This document shows, one piece after another, positions 6,565 through 28,624 of a stretch of DNA of 34,785 nt (position 1 is the first letter of the stretch; every line of letters begins with the position of its first letter). The translations under genes were made by a program, and so were the position numbers. Source of the stretch: Nitrosomonas sp. GTDB taxonomy: Bacteria > Pseudomonadota > Gammaproteobacteria > Burkholderiales > Nitrosomonadaceae. The notes under the pieces are model-generated. The model did no database searches, was not told where the DNA came from, and worked only from the letters and a program-made list of their open reading frames with translations. The stretch is from the NCBI GenBank assembly GCA_021604405.1, contig BQJA01000031.1:1-34785 (forward strand), read 5' to 3'.

Positions 6565-7452
6565 CTAAATTTTCGCTAATACTTCCGCGACTGTTTTACC
6601 CATCATGGCGGGTGTTGAACAGATTGTAACACCCAATTCTTTTAGCGTAGCCACTTTTTCAGCGGCACTTTCGCCCGCAGAAGAAATAATTGCGCCAGCA
6701 TGCCCCATGCGTCTGCCTTCAGGTGCTGTTAAACCCGCAATATAAGCAACCAGTGGTTTGGTCATGTTTTCTTTGGCGAATATTCCCGCTTCTACCTCCT
6801 GCGGACCACCAATTTCACCGATCATAAGCGCAACTTTGGTTTCTGGGTCCTGTTCCAGTCTTTCGAGCACATCGCGATGCGAGCTGCCAATTATCGGGTC
6901 ACCACCAATGCCTACAGATGTAGAAATACCAATACCCAATAACCGCATTTGATCTGCAGCCTCATAACCCAGGGTACCTGAGCGTCCGACAACACCAACA
7001 TTGCCACGAATATAGATGTGACCCGGCATTATTCCCAACATCGCCCGGCCAGGGCTGATGGTGCCAGAACAATTGGGGCCCGTTAGCATCATTCGCTCTT
7101 TTTTGGGGAAACGGCGTAAAAAGTTTTTTACGGTCATCATGTCCTGAGTTGGTATGCCATCGGTAACCGCGACACAGTACTTTATTCCTGCATCGGCCGC
7201 TTCCATAATTGAATCCGCGGCAAATGCTGGCGGAACGAAAACGATACTTGCTTCTGCGCCGGCTTCTTGGACCGCTTCCTTAACGGTGTTGAAAACGGGT
7301 AAATTCAGATGTTTTTGGCCGCCTTTCCCTGGTGTTACACCGCCAACAACCTTGGAACCATAATCAATCATCTCCTGCGCATGAAAAGTGCCAATTCTTC
7401 CCGTAAAACCTTGTACAATAATACGTGTATTTTCATCAATTAATGTTGCCAA
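6565..7452 (-). CDS. mtkB: Malate-CoA ligase alpha subunit (MtkB-like; SucD family)
   Basis: CoA-binding and phosphohistidine subunit of an ADP-forming acyl-CoA ligase, 295 residues. The N-terminal Rossmann part has VQGFTGRIGTFH and GGVTPGKGG. The active-site His is His251 in RRMGHAGAII. Features I recall from malate-CoA ligase of serine-cycle methylotrophs rather than succinyl-CoA synthetase are the extra basic insert RRFPKKER at 113-120, MLGIMPGHIYI (residues about 138-148) and GIGISTSVGIGGDPI. SucD proteins lack the insert and read IGIQPGHIH there. The start is TTG at 7452 behind an AAGGAGAG ribosome site. It follows mtkA by 20 bases, so the two are one transcript. The family is certain; malate rather than succinate as substrate is a motif-based inference. 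Confidence 0.82.
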   Translation of the reverse strand: MATLIDENTRIIVQGFTGRIGTFHAQEMIDYGSKVVGGVTPGKGGQKHLNLPVFNTVKEAVQEAGAEASIVFVPPAFAADSIMEAADAGIKYCVAVTDGIPTQDMMTVKNFLRRFPKKERMMLTGPNCSGTISPGRAMLGIMPGHIYIRGNVGVVGRSGTLGYEAADQMRLLGIGISTSVGIGGDPIIGSSHRDVLERLEQDPETKVALMIGEIGGPQEVEAGIFAKENMTKPLVAYIAGLTAPEGRRMGHAGAIISSAGESAAEKVATLKELGVTICSTPAMMGKTVAEVLAKI

Positions 7453-7472
7453 TTTTCTCTCTCCTTGCTTTT

Positions 7473-8645
7473 CTACGCGGTCGCTTCATTACGGGCTTGT
7501 ACAACTTTCTCAGCAGCATCGGCCAAGGTGTCCGCAGTGATAATCGGTAAGCCACTCTCTGCAATAATACGGCGTCCTTCCTTCACATTAGTACCGGACA
7601 GACGCACCACTAATGGAACTTTCATGTCGATATTTTTAACTGCGTGCACAACACCTTCAGCAATCCAATCGCAACGGTTAATGCCTGCAAAAATATTCAC
7701 AAGCATTGCTTTGACTCGTTTATCAGCCAATACCAGGCGAAATGCCTTTTCAGTCCGTTCAGCCGATGCGCCGCCGCCCACATCGAGAAAATTAGCCGGT
7801 TCTCCTCCAGCTAATTTAATCATGTCCATCGTTGCCATGGCCAATCCTGCGCCGTTGATCATGCAACCGATATCCCCATCGAGGCCAACATAGCTTAAGC
7901 TGGACTCGGCCGCCGCAACTTCACGGGAATCAATTTGAGATTGGTCGCGTAATTCGGCTATTCTGTGGCGACGAAACAATGCATTTTCATCGAAATCCAT
8001 TTTGGCGTCCAGTGCGATCAATTCATTGTTTTCGGTAACAACCAGTGGATTAATTTCCACGGTATTTGCGTCAAGATCACGAAGTGCGCGGTAGCATCCT
8101 TTGATTGTTTTAACAGCATGATTCATTATTGACGTGTCAAGATCCAATGCAAACGCCATTTTACGGGCCTGAAAGTCCTGCAATCCGACTGCCGGCTCAA
8201 TATAGATTTTTTTTATGGCATCCGGGTCGGTTTCAGCCAGCTTTTCAATTTCCATTCCTCCCTGTGCTGATCCAATCATGATGACCCGTTCAGTGCTGCG
8301 GTCGATCAAAAATGACAGATACAATTCCTTGGTGATTTTTGATCCAGCTTCAACATAAAGCCTGGCGCACATCTTGCCACCCGGCCCGGTTTGATTCGTC
8401 ACTAATTTTTTTCCTAACAGCGCTTCCGCAGCTGTTTCAACCTCAGTGTGTGTTTTACAAACTTTAATCCCGCCTGCTTTGCCACGCGCGCCAGAATGAA
8501 TTTGCGCTTTAACTACCCAAGTATCACCCTCAATTTCCCTGGCACGTTGTACAGCTTCTTCGACACTGTAAGCCAAGCCCCCTTCAGCGATTTTAATGCC
8601 AAATTCCGTTAATATTTCTTTTGCCTGATATTCATGAATATTCAA
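7473..8645 (-). CDS. mtkA: Malate-CoA ligase beta subunit (MtkA-like; SucC family)
   Basis: ATP-grasp subunit of the same ligase, 390 residues. The ATP-grasp domain spans about 1-240, with [17 protein letters not shown] near 45-61 as the nucleotide loop and VEINPLVVT at 196-204. The C-terminal ligase domain follows, with [30 protein letters not shown] near 274-303. [11 protein letters not shown] at 316-326 is the form I associate with malate-CoA ligase; SucC normally has [22 protein letters not shown] at 150-161 and [16 protein letters not shown] at 221-236 also look MtkA-like. The TTG start at 8645 is preceded by GAGAGG and gives the family N-terminus HEYQAKE. The products of mtkA and mtkB would form malyl-CoA from malate, CoA and ATP, or run in reverse. 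Confidence 0.82.
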
Positions 8646-8805
8646 CGTATTTTCCTCTCAAATTTCAATAACTTCTAATACATACAGCAAGCAAAAAACA
8701 CAGTGCAGGCTATATATCTTTGCAAATTCCTGGTTTTAGCTAAAAATGACCGCTGCCAGTAATAGCCAGCATGGTTTCCGTTTATTTTTTGTTATTGTAT
8801 CCTCG

Positions 8806-8831
8806 TCAGAATCTCAATCTGAGACCTCTGA
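8806..8831. promoter_or_regulatory. Nested inverted repeat upstream of mtkA (possible operator)
   Basis: Two nested dyads share one centre: TCTCA-ATC-TGAGA (8812-8824), flanked by TCAGA (8806-8810) and TCTGA (8827-8831). No T-tract follows on either strand, so it does not look like a terminator. The inner unit fits the loose T-N11-A pattern of LysR-type regulators. It lies about 165 bases upstream of the mtkA start in the only non-coding stretch that could hold an mtkAB promoter. The role is inferred; only the symmetry is seen. Confidence 0.35.
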
Positions 8832-8863
8832 CCTTTTTCACTAAATCGTGCGCCTATTAAAAC

Positions 8864-8886
8864 AAAGGCCGCTAAACGCGGCCTTT
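8864..8886 (-). terminator. Rho-independent terminator after the malyl-CoA lyase gene
   Basis: A perfect 9-bp stem (AAAGGCCGC/GCGGCCTTT) has a 5-base loop. On the minus strand it is followed by GTTTTAATAG, a short U-rich run. It sits 11 bases past the lyase stop codon. It suggests that mcl is mostly transcribed separately from mtkAB, although the genes point the same way. Confidence 0.85.
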
Positions 8887-8897
8887 GGATATTAGTG

Positions 8898-9845
8898 CTA
8901 ATTTTTTGCCGCAATCGCTTCGGCAATTTTCACCACATTATTGGCCATCCTTTCCGATGCGGCATCAATCAATCTGCCATCAAGTGCGGCAGCACCTTTT
9001 CCTTGTGCGGCGGCTTCTTTCAGAGCACTCAAGATGCGTTTGGCTTTTTCAACTTCTGCAGTGGGTGGCGTAAAAATTTCATTTGCCAGTGTAATTTGAG
9101 AAGGATGAATCGCCCATTTACCCTCACAACCCAGTGCTGCCGCTCTTTTCGCGGCAAGCTTATACCCCTCAGGATCCTTGATATCACCAAATGGGCCGTC
9201 GATAGATCGCAATCCATAAGCCCGGCAAGCAACGGTCATGCGACTGATTGCGGCGTGCCACTGATCGCCAGGATAATCAGGATTGAGCCCGCCAATATTG
9301 GTGGTTCTGGCACGATTACTCGCCGCATAATCCGCCACGCCAAAATGTAACGCTTCAAGACGGCCGGTGGCGCCATTACGGGCGATATCCTCTACATTCG
9401 CCATGCCAAGCGCCGTTTCTATTAATGCCTCTAAGCCAATCCTGTTTTTCAATCCTTGTTGCATTTCCAGTTGGCTTACCATTGCTTCCACCATATAAAC
9501 ATCCGAATATACGCCAACTTTAGGTATCAAAATGATATCCAACCGGTGACCGGCCTGTTCAATCAGATCCACCACATCGCGAACCATATATTGCGTATCC
9601 AGGCCATTTATGCGTACCGACACGGTAATTCCATGCGCTTTCCAATCCAGGTCATTAATGGCTTGTATGACGTTCTTGCGTGCTTGTATTTTGTCATCGG
9701 GTGCGACCGCATCTTCCAAGTCAAGAAAAACAAAGTCAACACCACTATTCAGCGCTTTCTCAAACATTTCCGGGCTGGAACCAGGTACAGCCAATTCACA
9801 ACGTTGCACCCGTTGAATGTTTGTTTCGTATAGTGTGTGACTCAT
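8898..9845 (-). CDS. mcl: L-malyl-CoA (beta-methylmalyl-CoA) lyase, HpcH/HpaI aldolase family
   Basis: Reversibly cleaves malyl-CoA to acetyl-CoA and glyoxylate. The 315-residue TIM barrel shows FLDLEDAVAPDDK near 40-52, RINGLDT at 78-84 (CoA/substrate Arg), IETALGMANVE with Mg ligand Glu143, FGVADYAAS with Mg ligand Asp172, and the C-terminal cap GKWAIHPSQI and GRLIDAAS. These match malyl-CoA lyases more closely than citrate lyase CitE, which is shorter and lacks the conserved cap. The ATG has a strong GGAGGAAAA ribosome site. It stands upstream of mtkAB on the same strand and uses the product of that ligase, which supports both calls. Beta-methylmalyl-CoA activity is possible and cannot be excluded. 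Confidence 0.88.
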   Translation of the reverse strand: MSHTLYETNIQRVQRCELAVPGSSPEMFEKALNSGVDFVFLDLEDAVAPDDKIQARKNVIQAINDLDWKAHGITVSVRINGLDTQYMVRDVVDLIEQAGHRLDIILIPKVGVYSDVYMVEAMVSQLEMQQGLKNRIGLEALIETALGMANVEDIARNGATGRLEALHFGVADYAASNRARTTNIGGLNPDYPGDQWHAAISRMTVACRAYGLRSIDGPFGDIKDPEGYKLAAKRAAALGCEGKWAIHPSQITLANEIFTPPTAEVEKAKRILSALKEAAAQGKGAAALDGRLIDAASERMANNVVKIAEAIAAKN

Positions 9846-22055: not shown

Positions 22056-22077
22056 TTAATTCAATTTGTTGAATTAA
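22056..22077. terminator. AT-rich hairpin between convergent genes
   Basis: TTAATTCAA-TTTG-TTGAATTAA is a perfect 9-bp stem with a 4-base loop. It overlaps the last codons of the TolC-like gene and lies 30 bases after the small plus-strand gene. It may act in both directions, but the stem has few G-C pairs and no long T-tract, so the terminator call is tentative. Confidence 0.45.
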
Positions 22078-23404
22078 AATAAGCAGCGATTCTTTGCAAA
22101 TCATCGAGAACGAGATCTCCTGCCGCTAGTTTTAGGCGCATATGGGCAAGTAAGTAATTATACCGGGCTTCCGAGAGTTCCCATTGAGCTGAAAATAATT
22201 GCTGCTGTGCATCCAGCAAATCCAAATTTATCCTTATCCCGCCTTTAATACTCTGTTCGGTTGCTTGAACCAAGAGCTTAGCTGATTCTACTGCAAGCTC
22301 GAGCGATTCTATTCGTCTGACACTGCTTAAGGTCAGCTGGTATTGTCTGCGCAATTCAACCAGGACATTATCGATCATCGTATTCAAGTCCTCTTCGGCT
22401 CGCGCATGGTTTGCGACTGATTGGCGGGTCACAGCATTAACCCGGCCGCCGGCATAGATGGGAACATTGACTTCTATGCCAATACTGGCAATATCCGCGT
22501 TACGATTAGCGGTTATAAATGACGCAGAATTATTTCGACTTAAGCTCGCGACCAGGTCAAGGCGTGGCATATGACCAGAACGGCTTCTATTTATCTCTTC
22601 CTTACTGGACGCAACAGTGTATCGCTGGGTAACCAGTTCAGCATTGCGATTAAGCGCCAATTCCTCCCAGCTTTCATAGTCAACCATTTGTATATTATTG
22701 ACTTGAAAATCGACTGGCAATCGGTCAAGCTGTTCGATGTCCCGATTTCCTACAATGGCAGCCAGCCTAAGCCGCGCCACTTCATATTCGTCCTGCGCTT
22801 CTATAGCCTCCGCTTGCGCTAAGGCATGCTGGGACTGTGTTTCAAGTACATCGGTGACCGTTCCCTCGCCCTTTTGCAGCATTTTCTCATTGACCTTTTT
22901 CCGCTCTTCAAGCGTTTTTTGTTGTGTCTGTGCAAGCATTAAACGGTCTTCCGCAAGAAGTGCCTCAAAGTACGCTTCCACAAGCCGAACAATCAATTGC
23001 TGACTGTGACCGGTAAACCTGGCCTGGCTGGAATTAGCCTGCGCTGCGCCTTGCCGGTATCCGGCGACCGCTTCCAGGTCAAGAATTGGCTGACGCAAAG
23101 ACAATGTACTGACTTGACTGTCAAAATCTAAAGGAGTTTCTGGTCCGAGTTCAAATTTTTGTCTTCCGGTATTCTTGCTCTGCGTGTGCGTAAAAGATAA
23201 ATTTGGCAGCAAACTGGAAAGACCAATCGCTTTTTCTTCCTGGCCCGCTTCATTTTCATGAATGGCCGCCCGATAAACAGGATCATTTTCCAGAGCCGCC
23301 GCATAAGCGTCCAGCAGTCCGAGCGCATGGCCACCGCTTACTGGTAATAACCAGACAGTTAATACTGAAATATAAATGCTACGTCGAGGAAATCGCATTG
23401 TCAT
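22061..23404 (-). CDS. TolC-family outer-membrane protein of a type I secretion system
   Basis: Outer-membrane channel-tunnel of the neighbouring exporter, 447 residues. A signal peptide (ISVLTVWLLPVSGGHALG, about 11-28) precedes the mature start LLDAYAAALENDPVYRAA, which is typical of the PrtF/TolC family. Two long-helix repeats follow (about 30-220 and 230-430), with conserved GxAxANSSQA and LxEARYNYLLAHMRLKLAAGDL patterns. Its start overlaps the stop of the membrane-fusion gene by one base (TAATG), so it is translated from the same message. The substrate is not in the window. Confidence 0.93.
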   Translation of the reverse strand: MTMRFPRRSIYISVLTVWLLPVSGGHALGLLDAYAAALENDPVYRAAIHENEAGQEEKAIGLSSLLPNLSFTHTQSKNTGRQKFELGPETPLDFDSQVSTLSLRQPILDLEAVAGYRQGAAQANSSQARFTGHSQQLIVRLVEAYFEALLAEDRLMLAQTQQKTLEERKKVNEKMLQKGEGTVTDVLETQSQHALAQAEAIEAQDEYEVARLRLAAIVGNRDIEQLDRLPVDFQVNNIQMVDYESWEELALNRNAELVTQRYTVASSKEEINRSRSGHMPRLDLVASLSRNNSASFITANRNADIASIGIEVNVPIYAGGRVNAVTRQSVANHARAEEDLNTMIDNVLVELRRQYQLTLSSVRRIESLELAVESAKLLVQATEQSIKGGIRINLDLLDAQQQLFSAQWELSEARYNYLLAHMRLKLAAGDLVLDDLQRIAAYFNSTN

Positions 23405-24756
23405 TACTCTTCACTCATTGATGCATGAAGTCGATCGAGAATCGGTTTGAACAGGTAATTCATCATAGACCGCTCCCCGGTTTTTATAAAAATTTCTACC
23501 GGCATCCCGGCCCGTATCTGATGATGCGTAAGCAGTTCCATTCCTGCAGGCGTAACTTTTGTTTTCACATTGTAGTAGGGCTCCCCAGTTTGTTCGTCCG
23601 TCAGTCGGTCGGCGGATACCTGTGTAACAATGCCAGGTATGTTAGGTGTTTTATTTTGATTAAATGCAGAAAAAATTAAATCGACATGCAGCCCGGGATG
23701 AACCTTGTCAATCAGGTGAACCGGCACTTGTCCCGTAACAACTAACAGATCCTCACTCGGCACGATATCCATCATACTGAATCCGGGTCCAACGACCCCA
23801 CCATGCGTAAAAATATTCACACCCACGACTGTTCCATCGACCGGGGCTTTGACCAACACATTCGCCAGCTCAAAATCATGGGCGACTAATTGGCTATGCA
23901 AATCTTCCGCTTCTCGCTGAATATCAGATAATTGTTGCCGAACTTCTTTTTGGAATTCTTGTTGGCGGTGAACTCGCTGCTGGTTCAATTCAGCAATCTG
24001 ACGCTGGATACGGCCAATATTGCCATTATCAGCGGAAATCTCACCTCGCAATTGAACGTAATCCCGTTCCAGCTCTAAAACACGGCTACGTGGAACAAAA
24101 CCATCCTTTGCCAAATCACGTAAATTAATAAGCTGTTCATTTAAAAATTGTAATTGTTGTTTTTTGCTTACAATTGATTCCTCCAGGCCACGCAACTGGA
24201 ATGTAAGGCCGGCAATATTTTCATCTAGCGCTGCCAATTCATGTCGCATTGATAAATTTCGTGACATGAAGAGCTGTCTTTGGGTACTGATTGTATTCGC
24301 GACACGCGGATCATTTGTAATCGACAATAATTCGGACGGAAAATCAATTGCAGTTTTTTCATCCCGTTCAGCAATCAGACGCGCTTCAATAGCGCGCGCT
24401 GAAAACAGTCGACTTCTGGTAATCTCTGCTTGCGATTTAACTTGAATGTCATTCATTCGAACCAATACTTGGCCGGCTTTGACACGATCACCTTCCGTAA
24501 CCAGAATTTCGTCAACAATACCACCCGTTTGATGCTGGACAGCTTTACGATTGCTGGCTACCGTAACTGTTCCGGAAAGTGGCACGCCCTTATCCAGTGG
24601 CGCAAAAAACGCCCATAAGAAAAAACCGCCAACACCCGCTAGCACAATCCACCAGCCAAGCCGAGCGTGGATCGTCTCATCCGTCTTGACCTGGTTTGTT
24701 TCGTCAAGTGAAAAATTATCTGGAATTGCTTCCTTTGCCTCAGCTAAAGCCTTCAT
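23404..24756 (-). CDS. HlyD-family membrane-fusion protein of a type I secretion system
   Basis: Periplasmic adaptor linking the ABC exporter to the TolC-like channel, 450 residues. The short cytoplasmic N-terminus is followed by one transmembrane helix (WIVLAGVGGFFLWAFFAPL, about 34-52). Then come a lipoyl half-domain (VQHQTGGIVDEILVTEGDRVKAGQVLVRMN), a long coiled-coil hairpin (about 145-295, with repeated Q/L/E heptads), the second lipoyl half (VKAPVDGTVVGVNIFTHGG) and a beta-barrel domain. The family is PrtE/HasE-like. AGGAA lies before the ATG. It is 67 bases downstream of the exporter gene. Confidence 0.94.
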   Translation of the reverse strand: MKALAEAKEAIPDNFSLDETNQVKTDETIHARLGWWIVLAGVGGFFLWAFFAPLDKGVPLSGTVTVASNRKAVQHQTGGIVDEILVTEGDRVKAGQVLVRMNDIQVKSQAEITRSRLFSARAIEARLIAERDEKTAIDFPSELLSITNDPRVANTISTQRQLFMSRNLSMRHELAALDENIAGLTFQLRGLEESIVSKKQQLQFLNEQLINLRDLAKDGFVPRSRVLELERDYVQLRGEISADNGNIGRIQRQIAELNQQRVHRQQEFQKEVRQQLSDIQREAEDLHSQLVAHDFELANVLVKAPVDGTVVGVNIFTHGGVVGPGFSMMDIVPSEDLLVVTGQVPVHLIDKVHPGLHVDLIFSAFNQNKTPNIPGIVTQVSADRLTDEQTGEPYYNVKTKVTPAGMELLTHHQIRAGMPVEIFIKTGERSMMNYLFKPILDRLHASMSEE

Positions 24757-24823
24757 GGTTAATTCCTGTCTGATTACCTAGATTCCTTCATAGCGAAACC
24801 GGATGGATTCACAGTTTATCCAT

Positions 24824-26614
24824 CTATGAAATATTCGGATCGACCACGCTCACGGTTGGTATTGCTTGCGTTTGCTTTTCTGTGTTGCTAACTTGTTGTG
24901 TCGGTGCCGCTTGCTGCCCAGATTGCTGTTGTTGCTTGGCAAGTGCTGACAAAACCTTCTGGCTCGGGCCAAACATTTTTGCAACGCCCGCCTGTAAAAA
25001 TAATAACTTGTTGGTTGCGCTAATAATACTGGTGCGGTGGGTAATCAGAACAATGGTTTTGCCCCGGTTGCGCAAATCAATAATGGCAGCCAATAATGCT
25101 TTTTCACCTGCATCATCCAGATTTGAATTTGGTTCATCCAGAACGATGAGCGATGGGTCGTCATAAAGGGCACGCGCCAAGCCAAGACGTTGCTTTTGGC
25201 CACCCGCGAGCCCCGCGCCACCATCTCCGAGTGGCGAGTCATATCCTTGTGGCATATTCAAGATCATTTCGTGCACGCCGGCACGTTTAGCGGCCTGAAT
25301 TACCTTTTCTGCATCAATGTTGCCAAAGCGGGCGATATTTTCTGAAACGGTGCCACTGAACAATTCAATATCTTGCGGCAGATAACCAATATGCGACCCT
25401 AGCTCGTTCTTGTTCCAAAGATAAACATCGGCGCCATCAAGCCGGACTTTTCCTACCGCTGATGACCACACACCAACCAATAAGCGTGCCAGTGTGGACT
25501 TTCCGGAACCACTGGGTCCAATAACGCCCAGGACTTCGCCGGCTGCAAGCGAAAAACTCAGTCCCTTAACAGCAGGGACAGAAGCACCCGGTGGTGCTGC
25601 TGTCACGTTTTCAACCGATATGATGCCCTTTGGTTTTGGAAGTGCCATGCCCGGCTCACGAGCTGGATTTTTTTCCAGCAATTCTGTAAGACGTTCATAA
25701 GCACTGCGCGTACTGCCAAACTGTTTCCAAACACTAATTAGTAACTGAATCGGGGCAATTGCCCGGCCCAATAAAATAGAACCGGCAATCATCATTCCGG
25801 GCGATATGCTGTTATCCAAAACCAATAATGCACCCAATCCAAGCATCAGTGATTGCAACGCAACAGAAGATGATTTCGAAATAGCCGTGAGAATACCTGA
25901 TTTCTCACTAGCCTCGGCTTGCAAGCCGAGAAAACGACTATGCAATTTATTCCAACGTGTCTGCAGATTAGGTAACATTCCCATGGCTTCGATAACTTCG
26001 GCGTTACGTAAGTTATTCGATGCTAAAGTGGTCGATGCAATGGCCATTGTGTTGGCTTCTTCCAAGGGCTTGCGTGATATTTTTTCATTGATATAAGCAA
26101 GTACAATCAATAACGTTGTGCCACATAATGCAAATACACCCAGCCAAGTGTGGAACATAAAAATAACAAAGATATAGATGGGAAACCAGGGTGTATCAAA
26201 GAATGCAAACAATGCATTGCCCGTCAAGAATTGACGTATGCTTGTTAAATCCTTTAAAGCCTGCCCGGCATTACCGCCACCTTGTTTCAAGCTTTGCTCG
26301 AAAGCGGCAGTGTAGACGCGCTTATTCAGCTTCATGTCGAGTTGCGCGCCTACGCGGATCAACACGAAGCTGCGCACGTATTCGAGTGCGCCCATAAAAA
26401 TATAAGCACCCAGCATTATCAGCGTCAGCATTAACAGCGTCATTTCGTTGCGGCTGGTCAATACACTGTCATACAACTGCAGCATGTATATCGCCGGCAT
26501 GAGCATAAGCAGGTTAATGACGGCACTGAAAACACCGATTGTGCGAAAGGCCTTTTTAAAGCTGGCCAATGCCTGTGCAACCTCATTTTGAGGAATCTTG
26601 ATTTTTGGTGTCAT
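24824..26614 (-). CDS. Type I secretion ABC permease/ATPase (PrtD-like)
   Basis: Exports an unfolded substrate with a C-terminal signal, using ATP, 596 residues. There is no N-terminal C39 peptidase or C39-like domain; the exporter-type membrane domain (about 25-320) begins almost at once, as in PrtD/HasD. The nucleotide-binding domain has Walker A GPSGSGKST (366-374), signature LAGGQ (469-473; the usual Ser is Ala), Walker B LIVLDE (489-494) and the H-loop LITHRTS. A Gln-rich tail of about 40 residues ends the protein. It is the first gene of the exporter-adaptor-channel operon. A CRP-type palindrome lies about 175 bases upstream. Confidence 0.94.
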   Translation of the reverse strand: MTPKIKIPQNEVAQALASFKKAFRTIGVFSAVINLLMLMPAIYMLQLYDSVLTSRNEMTLLMLTLIMLGAYIFMGALEYVRSFVLIRVGAQLDMKLNKRVYTAAFEQSLKQGGGNAGQALKDLTSIRQFLTGNALFAFFDTPWFPIYIFVIFMFHTWLGVFALCGTTLLIVLAYINEKISRKPLEEANTMAIASTTLASNNLRNAEVIEAMGMLPNLQTRWNKLHSRFLGLQAEASEKSGILTAISKSSSVALQSLMLGLGALLVLDNSISPGMMIAGSILLGRAIAPIQLLISVWKQFGSTRSAYERLTELLEKNPAREPGMALPKPKGIISVENVTAAPPGASVPAVKGLSFSLAAGEVLGVIGPSGSGKSTLARLLVGVWSSAVGKVRLDGADVYLWNKNELGSHIGYLPQDIELFSGTVSENIARFGNIDAEKVIQAAKRAGVHEMILNMPQGYDSPLGDGGAGLAGGQKQRLGLARALYDDPSLIVLDEPNSNLDDAGEKALLAAIIDLRNRGKTIVLITHRTSIISATNKLLFLQAGVAKMFGPSQKVLSALAKQQQQSGQQAAPTQQVSNTEKQTQAIPTVSVVDPNIS

Positions 26615-26788
26615 CTAAACGTTTAAAAGTTGCTAAAAATGATAAGCAAATGATCTCTGAAAATCAGCTTGCTCTAAGTGACAATTAAGATTACTTTCTT
26701 GCCTTTATAATAAAAAATCTATCTATAAATAAGCGAGTTAACGTCACAATGACATCAAACACCAGCAAACTTACGGTGAGAATACACT

Positions 26789-26812
26789 AAAATGTGATGT
26801 GTGTCACATTTT
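26789..26812. promoter_or_regulatory. CRP-type binding site upstream of the secretion operon
   Basis: TGTGA (26793-26797), six bases, TCACA (26804-26808), with AAAA and TTTT flanks completing 9-base arms. This equals the E. coli CRP core TGTGA-N6-TCACA and lies in the 227-base gap between the CRP-class regulator gene and the ABC exporter gene. On the minus strand it lies upstream of AT-rich -10-like stretches (TATTAT near 26710). It could also act as a weak hairpin terminator for the regulator gene, since the arm ends in T's on both strands. The palindrome is seen; the role is inferred. Confidence 0.65.
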
Positions 26813-26841
26813 TTAATTCTTGATTGTTAATTTTCAGATTG

Positions 26842-27612
26842 TTACAAATTTTTTGTCATTTTCTGCAAAGCTTCTGGCCTAACAATAATTAAGCGATGTG
26901 CATCTTTACGGATAATTCCTTGATGTGTCAGCGTCAATAGCGCTCTGGTTACCGTTTCGCGGCTGGTATTGATCATGCTGGCAATTTCCTGATGTGTCGG
27001 CAAGTTTTCTACGAGTTCCTGCTTTCCTACACTTTTCTGCTTCATAAGCACCAAAAATCGTGACAATCGTTTTGCAGTATTATTGATACTGAGCATAGCG
27101 CGGAATTTATTATCAAGCTGCACCTTTTGCGCCAGATGCTTTTGTATCTGGCTGGCGACCGGGGGTGAATGCGTAAATAAATGCAGTGCTGTCAAGCATG
27201 GCAAGAAAGCAACCAAAACTTCACTTAAAGCGATGACTGATGCGGTGTGTAAAGACTGATTAATGAGGGTGGTTTCGCCGAAAAATTCGCCAGCCGATAG
27301 CAGCTGCAGGCCAATGACCCTTCCTTCATCGGTCATATCAATCGCCTGCAGTCTTCCTGAAAGCAGAAACAGCAGGTGATCGCCATTCGCCTTCTTTTTT
27401 ATGATCACTTCCCGTCGTGCATAACGTCTCACCTGCAATTCTTTTTTGACCGTAGCCATTTCACTGGCAGTCAGTTGTGCCAGCAATGGAATTTTGCGCA
27501 AATTGACTGCTATATTAACGTTATTTCCGGTCTGTTCTGAAGCAAGTCCGTTCTCCGGCAGTTCAAGCTTTTTTCCTGCTGCTTCATATTGTTGTTTATT
27601 TCTGTCGATCAT
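26842..27612 (-). CDS. CRP/FNR-family transcription regulator (CRP class)
   Basis: DNA-binding regulator with an N-terminal cyclic-nucleotide-binding-type domain and a C-terminal winged helix. The jelly-roll includes RREVIIKKKANGDHLLFLLSGRLQAI and LSAGEFFGETTLINQSLHTASVIAL, close to the cNMP pocket pattern G-E-...-R-x-A-S, although the Arg is not conserved. The helix-turn-helix has THQEIASMINTSRETVTRAL; SRETVTR (217-223) carries the Arg-Glu-x3-Arg of CRP that reads TGTGA. No FNR-type cysteine cluster is present. The ATG at 27612 overlaps the epimerase by 17 bases. A GTG at 27687 with AAGG before it is an alternative, giving 281 residues and a 92-base overlap. Confidence 0.85.
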   Translation of the reverse strand: MIDRNKQQYEAAGKKLELPENGLASEQTGNNVNIAVNLRKIPLLAQLTASEMATVKKELQVRRYARREVIIKKKANGDHLLFLLSGRLQAIDMTDEGRVIGLQLLSAGEFFGETTLINQSLHTASVIALSEVLVAFLPCLTALHLFTHSPPVASQIQKHLAQKVQLDNKFRAMLSINNTAKRLSRFLVLMKQKSVGKQELVENLPTHQEIASMINTSRETVTRALLTLTHQGIIRKDAHRLIIVRPEALQKMTKNL

Positions 27613-28624
27613 GAGTTTCGGTTGGCAAATCCTTCGCGGCAAGTATATATTGTTTGACATTTTGGTGGTACCAAGCTGCTGTTGCACTTAAGCCTTGTTC
27701 TAATGTGTAAGGCGGTGTCCAGCCTAAATCATTACGCAGTTTTGCGTCATTCACACGCAATACCCCGAATAGCTTATCTATCTGATCCGCACGCCCGACT
27801 GCTGCTGCCGCAAAACGCAGCAGTGTTTCCGGAAAATAGAATAAGCGGTTGCTACGGCCCAACGCTGCAGACAGCTTTTTAACCAGCGACGCAGTCGACA
27901 TATTTTCACCATCACAAACCAAATAAGTCTGTCCCGACGCCGCGGGATGGGTTGTACAGGCGATAAGTACACTCACCAGATTTCCAACATACACGAGACT
28001 GCGAATATTGCGCGCGCCTGCCAGTGGCAACGGTACTCCCTTTTCAAGCGCGGCCAGCAAGCTGTAGAAATTTCCTTTTACGCCTGGGCCGTATACCAGC
28101 GGGGGGCGAATGGTCACCACTTGTAGACCCGATTCTTTTGCGATACGCCATAATGCTTGTTCGGCTTGCCATTTAGAGATGCCATATGGACTCTGCGGCG
28201 CGGGAAAATCCTGCGCAGTATAGCTGTGCTGATTGCGTGTTTCCTCGCCATTTACCTTGATCGAACTGACATAAACAAACCGTTTCGTCCCAGCGTGGGC
28301 CGCCTGCTGTGCCAGATTTTCAGTACCATGCAGATTGACCTTGAGGAACGACGCCAGTGGATCCGCAACATCGTCTTTCATCACATGCACACGTGCGGCA
28401 AGATGAATAACCACATCGACGCCACGCAGCGCGTTTGTCCAATCGGTATCCCCATCAATACCATCGATTACGGCAACTTCCATACCATCCAGTGATGAAA
28501 TAGACGATCGCACCGCTGCCCTGACTCGCCAGCCCTGGCGCAGCATCTCCCCGCACAAGTGTCTGCCAATGAAACCATTGGCGCCGGTAACAAGTACCCG
28601 GTTGCTTTGATTACCCGTTGCCAT
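27596..28624 (-). CDS. NAD-dependent nucleotide-sugar epimerase/dehydratase (extended SDR)
   Basis: Probable UDP-sugar 4-epimerase or reductase for surface polysaccharide synthesis. The 342 residues have the NAD loop VLVTGANGFIGRHL near 10-23, the DVVIHLAARVHV motif, VSSIKVNGE and the catalytic Tyr-x3-Lys in SPYGISKWQAEQ. RPPLVYGPGVKGNFYSLLAALEKG is typical of the WbpV/WbiG-like epimerase subgroup often found beside initiating glycosyltransferases. The ATG at 28624 is preferred over an in-frame TTG at 28633; neither has a strong ribosome site. The sugar cannot be read from sequence. Confidence 0.85.
   Translation of the reverse strand: MATGNQSNRVLVTGANGFIGRHLCGEMLRQGWRVRAAVRSSISSLDGMEVAVIDGIDGDTDWTNALRGVDVVIHLAARVHVMKDDVADPLASFLKVNLHGTENLAQQAAHAGTKRFVYVSSIKVNGEETRNQHSYTAQDFPAPQSPYGISKWQAEQALWRIAKESGLQVVTIRPPLVYGPGVKGNFYSLLAALEKGVPLPLAGARNIRSLVYVGNLVSVLIACTTHPAASGQTYLVCDGENMSTASLVKKLSAALGRSNRLFYFPETLLRFAAAAVGRADQIDKLFGVLRVNDAKLRNDLGWTPPYTLEQGLSATAAWYHQNVKQYILAAKDLPTETHDRQK

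Follow-up and report, generated by a model that had tools for sequence, protein, structure and literature searches.

We analysed a stretch of 34,785 nucleotides, referred to here as the window, which constitutes contig 31 (BQJA01000031.1) of a 3.74-Mb draft genome of Nitrosomonas sp. (GCA_021604405.1), focusing on three adjacent genes for a coenzyme A (CoA) ligase and a lyase. By default, two of these genes would be named as the beta and alpha subunits of succinyl-CoA synthetase, SucC and SucD. The original prediction, made from the letters alone, proposed that this ligase resembles SucCD but is a malate-CoA ligase (MtkAB), that the neighbouring gene encodes a malyl-CoA lyase (Mcl), and that the set could replace malate synthase. 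The three open reading frames were found where it had placed them, all on the minus strand (Table 1), with gaps of 252 bases between mcl and mtkA and 20 bases between mtkA and mtkB. Judged from sequence comparison, they very probably encode a genuine malate-CoA ligase and malyl-CoA lyase.

Table 1. Predicted genes and hairpin of the mcl-mtkA-mtkB locus, in window coordinates
Feature	Position	Strand	Description
mcl, malyl-CoA lyase	8898..9845	-	315 aa, ATG start, GGAGG-like ribosome site ahead
terminator-like hairpin, between mcl and mtkA	8863..8887	-	10-pair stem then TTTT
mtkA, malate-CoA ligase beta subunit	7473..8645	-	390 aa, TTG start; PRK14046, tree, AGIN motif
mtkB, malate-CoA ligase alpha subunit	6565..7452	-	295 aa, TTG start; tree with MtkB rows

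Identity of the ligase and the lyase

The beta subunit of the window matches the NCBIfam model PRK14046, 'malate--CoA ligase subunit beta', with 693 bits (cut-off 604), against 537 bits for the SucC model. The genome's own SucC, encoded on contig 1, scores the opposite way, reaching 579.9 bits with the SucC model and 531.9 with that for malate-CoA ligase, which is below the same cut-off. The alpha subunit received only the NCBIfam label SucD, at 416 bits, and no malate-specific alpha model was among its matches; mislabelling of such ligases can arise in this way.

Phylogenetic trees were built from 44 beta and 45 alpha sequences, hand-picked from the fetched loci and from control plasmid records, with incomplete genes excluded. 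The pool of full-length genes comprised 100 MtkA-like, 71 MtkB-like and 115 Mcl-like sequences, including duplicates among overlapping loci. SucCD controls were taken from Methylobacterium bullatum, Paracoccus, Ruegeria, Rhizobium, Cupriavidus, Azospirillum, Bacillus, Sulfurovum and this genome's own pair, and single-subunit controls were SucC from Sphingomonas and SucD from E. coli; the Ruegeria and Rhizobium stretches also carry genes for malate dehydrogenase and 2-oxoglutarate dehydrogenase. Controls were labelled by the annotation of their records or, for the unannotated loci L144 and L145, by a better match to this genome's SucC. In the beta tree, 34 sequences linked to mcl or to the serine cycle, the window's included, stood apart from the 10 SucC controls (support 100/100), and in the alpha tree 34 such sequences stood apart from the 11 SucD controls (100/98). 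This Mtk/SucCD split was recovered in 100% of 200 bootstrap trees for each subunit, and both window subunits lie outside the SucCD clade, as the original prediction had anticipated for its SucC/MtkA and SucD/MtkB comparison. M. bullatum and Paracoccus alcaliphilus have members on both sides of the trees, which provides a within-organism control. Both trees contain long branches, that of Sulfurovum most of all, and the tree program warned of them.

A separate sucCD is present in the same genome (contig 1, C1:56.7-57.9 kb) and falls on the SucCD side of both trees, which bears out the expectation that a second pair would be found. In the stretch L041:4138-9973, the pair is preceded by a large gene resembling those for hybrid histidine kinases. 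Both trees place the pair with that of Bacillus (support 98/95 and 99/92), on long branches. Among the controls, the SucCD-like pairs of Azospirillum (L143) and Paracoccus alcaliphilus (L151) lie near oxalyl-CoA decarboxylase genes, in L143 also near a formyl-CoA transferase gene. These two pairs are on the SucCD side and may serve oxalate metabolism.

Residue comparisons likewise set 34 mcl- or serine-cycle-linked sequences, including those of the window, against the 10 beta and 11 alpha SucCD controls. All three peptides quoted in the original prediction as marks of a malate ligase are present, namely an 11-residue peptide at residue 316 of the beta subunit, and RRFPKKER (residue 113) and MLGIMPGHIYI (residue 138) of the alpha subunit; their diagnostic value proved unequal. 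The beta peptide stood the comparison well: its AGIN loop occurs in 34/34 Mtk and 0/10 SucC sequences (FAGIN in 33/34 and 0/10), the controls reading GGIM or GGIV at this position. All 34 Mtk sequences share A320, N323 and W327, whereas the 10 controls have none of these residues and read G at position 320, M or V at 323, and V, I or R at 327. The loop matching AGIN is presumably the one that holds succinate in pig SucCD. The two alpha peptides turned out to be weaker than claimed. A four-residue insert at RRFPKKER is found in 34/34 Mtk alpha sequences and 0/11 SucD controls, but it is not diagnostic by itself because a mitochondrial SucD (query 4-290, chain 10-297) aligns there without a four-residue gap; the GIMPGHI core of the other peptide is common to SucD, and mainly its flanks differ (ML...IY vs KI...IH). 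Other alpha positions are more telling: GPNCAG or GPNCSG is present in 34/34 Mtk sequences, against GPNCPG in 10/11 SucD controls, and G162 is kept in 34/34 where all 11 controls have T. The window alpha subunit also contains GHAGAII, which we take to be the motif holding the phosphohistidine.

It is highly improbable that the ligase is merely a second succinyl-CoA synthetase that happens to adjoin mcl. Such a reading would agree with the NCBIfam name of the alpha subunit and with the 44-52% identity that still joins the two ligase pairs of the genome. We rejected it on the basis of the trees, the curated beta model and the separate sucCD, and it is further opposed by the discriminating residues and by the constant arrangement of the genes: in 81/81 loci that contain both genes whole at >70% identity, mtkA follows mcl on the same strand, a count that includes the window and represents some genomes twice.

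For the lyase, the best match among solved structures is 5ugr_A, 'Malyl-CoA lyase/beta-methylmalyl-CoA lyase' (E 1.7e-113), followed by 4l9y (E 5.1e-90). The protein carries the Pfam domain HpcH_HpaI, and R78, E143 and D172, which we take to be catalytic or metal-binding residues, are kept in 34/34 Mcl sequences, the window's among them. Two loop types were distinguished in this set, a short GGLNPDYPGDQWH-like form in 30/34 and a form with 15 additional residues in 4/34, the latter belonging to M. bullatum, two Paracoccus and genome G037 (loci L140, L141, L152 and L037). Mcl-type enzymes can also act on beta-methylmalyl-CoA.

Gene order, relatives and the hairpin after mcl

The operon is common to methanotrophs and ammonia oxidisers. 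The lyase gene was found in 34/37 Nitrosomonas genomes, that of the window included, and an mtkA-coding sequence follows mcl in 30/30 fetched Nitrosomonas loci (including the window, and one locus in which it is cut by the locus end). The order mcl-mtkA-mtkB spans Nitrosomonas, Methylococcales and alphaproteobacteria. Among the best 80 of 582 Mcl matches, the nearest in named genomes are from Nitrosomonas, such as N. communis Nm44 and strains Nm132, Nm166, JL21 and Nm51; outside Nitrosomonadaceae they are mostly from Methylococcales methanotrophs (83-90% identical), with a Gallionella bin at 85% and alphaproteobacteria at 71-75%. Since some of the named loci come from metagenome bins, misbinning is possible. 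The proteins of the window are 73-90% identical to the fetched Methylococcales ones. A tree built from concatenated genes of 34 loci united Nitrosomonadaceae with the Gallionella bin and Methylococcales (support 100/100) and nested the ammonia oxidisers among the methanotrophs. A topology that keeps Methylococcales together as a clade was not rejected (approximately unbiased test, p-AU 0.217), so that the tree does not single out a donor of the operon.

The neighbourhood of the operon differs between the two groups. In a comparison of 38 loci, a class-V aminotransferase family was found near the operon in 8/12 methanotroph-group loci and a D-2-hydroxyacid dehydrogenase family in 7/12, against 0/14 ammonia-oxidiser loci in both cases; the family names rest on one member each, and the ammonia-oxidiser count includes the window and applies to the available flanks. 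Some flanks are short, with 521 bases upstream in L046 and 778 and 2,569 bases downstream in L090 and L071, respectively. Loci L071, L110 and L120 do have mcl, which an overlapping frame hid in the gene-order comparison. In other relatives, phosphoenolpyruvate (PEP) carboxylase, glyA or folate genes lie near the operon.

Ten bases past the mcl stop codon, a hairpin with a G+C-rich stem, CAAAGGCCGC-GTTTA-GCGGCCTTTG, is followed by TTTT. A scan of 4 kb for terminator-like sites gave 4, where shuffled sequences gave 5.0, and the three other stems have only 5-6 pairs. The pattern GGCCGCN{4,6}GCGGCC has a single match in the window, which is this hairpin (0.01 expected), and 147,420 bases from elsewhere in the same genome contain no match. 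Using a slightly looser pattern, a like hairpin with a kept stem and a varied loop was found 3' of mcl in 21/30 Nitrosomonas loci (L005-L034); of the nine without it, four have an mcl-mtkA gap of less than 50 bases. Because the scan did no better than shuffles, the weight of the hairpin rests on this conservation. The hairpin may end part of the transcript, so that the lyase would be made in larger amounts than the ligase; alternatively, mtkAB may be expressed from a promoter of its own. A promoter scan found 7 sites against 6.7 in shuffles, without an excess.

Beyond these genes, an ADP-ribosylglycohydrolase-like gene is the upstream neighbour of mcl, and a pncC-like gene lies beyond mtkB in convergent orientation. 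Elsewhere in the window, at 22061-27687, translations read by eye suggest a type I secretion set (outer-membrane channel, membrane-fusion protein and ABC transporter) beside a Crp-like regulator gene.

Glyoxylate and the direction of the pathway

By gene content, the genome is that of an autotroph. Of the two RuBisCO large subunits that it encodes, one has a small subunit next to it and the other has a CbbQ-type gene in its vicinity. The ammonia monooxygenase profile PF02461 had no match here and none in any control genome either, so that this zero is uninformative. Malate synthase (PF01274) was found in 0/61 Nitrosomonas genomes, including this one, while 6/14 controls matched; this absence of glcB/aceB is what the proposed replacement of malate synthase predicts. 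No Nitrosomonas genome of the 61 had a glyoxylate carboligase over the TIGR01504 cut-off (1/14 controls did), and weaker matches occurred in all 61. The two weak matches of this genome (C2:96406 and C103:2728) are acetolactate synthases, and glyoxylate carboligase was rejected as a glyoxylate sink. Members of the isocitrate lyase family passed the Pfam cut-off in 8/61 genomes, each covering only about 75-105 of 526 positions. The candidate isocitrate lyase of this genome was rejected, since it passes methylisocitrate lyase models and is flanked by the genes for malate dehydrogenase and 2-methylcitrate synthase. This row of three genes on contig 49 (L138:4010-7061) represents a propionyl-CoA route in the genome. 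A glcD-glcE-glcF locus for glycolate oxidation is also present, with GlcE and GlcF both well over their cut-offs. Directly upstream of it, in the same stretch (L136:1095-5831, contig 128), is a tartronate-semialdehyde reductase-like gene, whose product scores 376.8 bits, over the 340.75 of TIGR01505 but short of the cut-offs of two further models of this enzyme.

MtkAB and Mcl would together interconvert malate and the products of its cleavage, through malate + ATP + CoA <-> malyl-CoA + ADP + Pi and malyl-CoA <-> acetyl-CoA + glyoxylate. On balance, we think it probable from the gene content that the Nitrosomonas operon, which stands apart from serine-cycle genes, takes up glyoxylate and fills the place of malate synthase in a 'malate cycle' while conserving ATP. 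Oxygenation by RuBisCO would yield 2-phosphoglycolate and from it glycolate, which GlcDEF would oxidise to glyoxylate. Mcl would then join glyoxylate and acetyl-CoA to malyl-CoA, and MtkAB would convert malyl-CoA to malate, with the thioester energy recovered as ATP. Decarboxylation could return the malate to acetyl-CoA, as happens in the Cupriavidus necator malate cycle. The malate synthase (AceB) step makes no ATP. The energy released when acetyl-CoA and glyoxylate form malate exceeds that required to make ATP, and the condensing direction should accordingly be mildly favourable. While the identities of the genes and the lack of detectable alternatives are observed, we infer the substrate, the direction and the physiological role.

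Several points weigh against this proposal. Both the MtkAB and the Mcl steps are reversible, and serine-cycle methylotrophs run the pair in the opposite, cleaving direction. The lyase passes no NCBIfam equivalog cut-off, its best scores being 175.9 for RipC (cut-off 375) and 169 for CitE (443.4), and the sole malyl-CoA lyase model that matches is haloarchaeal (138.3 against 500); its identity thus rests on similarity to solved enzymes, on residues and on gene context. GlcD is just under both curated cut-offs (552.4 vs 567.9 and 814.8 vs 897), and GlcD-like matches occur in 59/61 Nitrosomonas genomes, none over the TIGR00387 cut-off. Three of the 37 Nitrosomonas genomes gave no mcl match, two of these being >90% complete, which means that the gene may not be essential. 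PEP carboxylase in 59/61 Nitrosomonas genomes and formate-tetrahydrofolate ligase in this genome both fit the cleaving, serine-cycle direction. In addition, glyoxylate could instead be turned into glycine by a class-V aminotransferase: homologues of the operon-linked enzyme occur in 59/61 Nitrosomonas genomes, although they are only 29-33% identical to it. This genome's remote homologue resembles the aspartate-glyoxylate enzyme BhcA but is far below the cut-off (231 vs 650); it could still do the reaction. In the available passages of a study of a gammaproteobacterial ammonia oxidiser, transamination of glyoxylate with alanine was proposed (PMC8115276), which makes the aminotransferase route a serious parallel or alternative glyoxylate sink.

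The main rival, which we consider rather unlikely, runs the same enzymes towards cleavage. Malate would be supplied by PEP carboxylase together with malate dehydrogenase, MtkAB would spend ATP on it, and Mcl would release acetyl-CoA and glyoxylate, the latter proceeding to glycine. The operon would then resemble in part, as a natural counterpart, the engineered malyl-CoA-glycerate pathway and would spare the CO2 lost at pyruvate dehydrogenase. Besides the widespread PEP carboxylase and class-V aminotransferase, malate dehydrogenase is present in this genome and a tartronate-semialdehyde reductase-like gene stands beside glcDEF, all in keeping with such a route. There is also a precedent in E. 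coli, where, according to the passages available, the Mtk of Methylococcus capsulatus and an Mcl split malate and rescue an acetyl-CoA auxotroph (PMC5964204). Against it, the lack of a glyoxylate carboligase over the cut-off in the 61 genomes means that the engineered cycle, as designed, cannot close; cleavage would cost ATP in an energy-poor autotroph, and glyoxylate made by GlcDEF would drive the opposite direction. That the operon belongs to a serine cycle, whether working or relict, for the assimilation of formate or other one-carbon units appears more doubtful still, although the clusters of relatives hold class-V aminotransferase, D-2-hydroxyacid dehydrogenase, PEP carboxylase, glyA or folate genes and this genome has a formate-tetrahydrofolate ligase. 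That ligase is patchy, being over the cut-off in only 20/61 genomes (two of them partial and two with an in-frame stop), as compared with mcl in 34/37. The aminotransferase and hydroxyacid dehydrogenase neighbours are missing from the 14 ammonia-oxidiser loci within the available flanks, and no close homologue of the operon-linked aminotransferase was found in the 61 genomes; a full serine cycle is weakened by these findings. The formate-tetrahydrofolate ligase gene of this genome (contig 29, L158:6886-8511) has, two genes away, a gene that passes the model for an L-lactate transporter of the major facilitator superfamily.

Known systems and implications

The disguise of a malate-CoA ligase as SucCD is already known as a kind. 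In M. capsulatus, MCA1739 is a malyl-CoA lyase candidate and MCA1740-1741 are similar to both malate-CoA ligase and SucCD, as stated in the accessible part of the source (PMC517821). The SucCD-2 of this organism, annotated as succinyl-CoA synthetase, is described in passages of two further papers as having very good malate thiokinase activity (PMC6966089) and as the most active malate thiokinase of those screened (PMC5964204). We infer that SucCD-2 corresponds to MCA1740-1741. As in the window, the lyase and ligase-like genes lie together, to judge from the consecutive locus numbers in the cited passages. However, M. capsulatus is a methanotroph with a ribulose monophosphate cycle and parts of the serine pathway, whereas the window belongs to a Nitrosomonas. 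The Methylococcales sequences compared here are those of other members of the order.

The MtkAB and Mcl of the Methylobacterium serine cycle belong to the same enzyme families. MtkA and MtkB of M. bullatum are 60% and 66% identical to those of the window and stand on the same side of both trees, while its Mcl differs in being of the long-loop type with 15 extra residues. Paracoccus and Aminobacter mtkAB genes have annotated serine-cycle neighbours, which the operon of the window is without. The malate cycle of C. necator, as far as the source could be consulted, likewise makes malate from glyoxylate and acetyl-CoA, in an aerobic autotroph that uses the Calvin cycle (PMC7486775), but does so with malate synthase, which was not found in the 61 Nitrosomonas genomes. 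The synthetic malyl-CoA-glycerate pathway, in the passages available, also places Mtk and Mcl beside the Calvin cycle; in contrast, it was engineered, works by cleaving malyl-CoA and depends on a glyoxylate carboligase (PMC5964204), an enzyme over the cut-off in none of the Nitrosomonas genomes.

We take EC 2.3.3.9 to be malate synthase. Excerpts of a 2020 survey of the malate cycle give malate synthase (PF01274) as its marker and list Nitrosomonas as an example genus of Burkholderiales (PMC7486775), and excerpts of another study score the cycle by EC 2.3.3.9 (PMC7895386). With such markers, an MtkAB-Mcl route would be counted by neither, as far as these excerpts go. In the titles and passages of open-licence literature that were searched, no description of an MtkAB-Mcl route in ammonia oxidisers was found, and the metabolic setting, an operon of this kind in a RuBisCO-bearing ammonia oxidiser without detected malate synthase, may be new. 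A phage-infection study of Nitrosomonas europaea, judged from its available passages, included measurements of both glyoxylate and glycolate and linked the former to oxygenation by RuBisCO (PMC13356812). Phosphoglycolate disposal in chemolithoautotrophic ammonia oxidisers has so far been inferred, to the extent that these passages tell.

For annotation, mislabelled malate-CoA ligases can be flagged by a simple rule: the AGIN motif in a SucC-like protein whose gene adjoins that of a CitE-like lyase. For the biology of the family, we tentatively suggest that ammonia-oxidising Nitrosomonadaceae could salvage phosphoglycolate by an ATP-yielding MtkAB-Mcl malate cycle, built on a fragment of the serine cycle that they share with methanotrophs. 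If this is true, the MtkAB-Mcl step would return ATP and would represent a natural version of the module that, according to the accessible passages, was engineered into a cyanobacterium (PMC5964204), carried by an operon that links methanotrophs and ammonia oxidisers.

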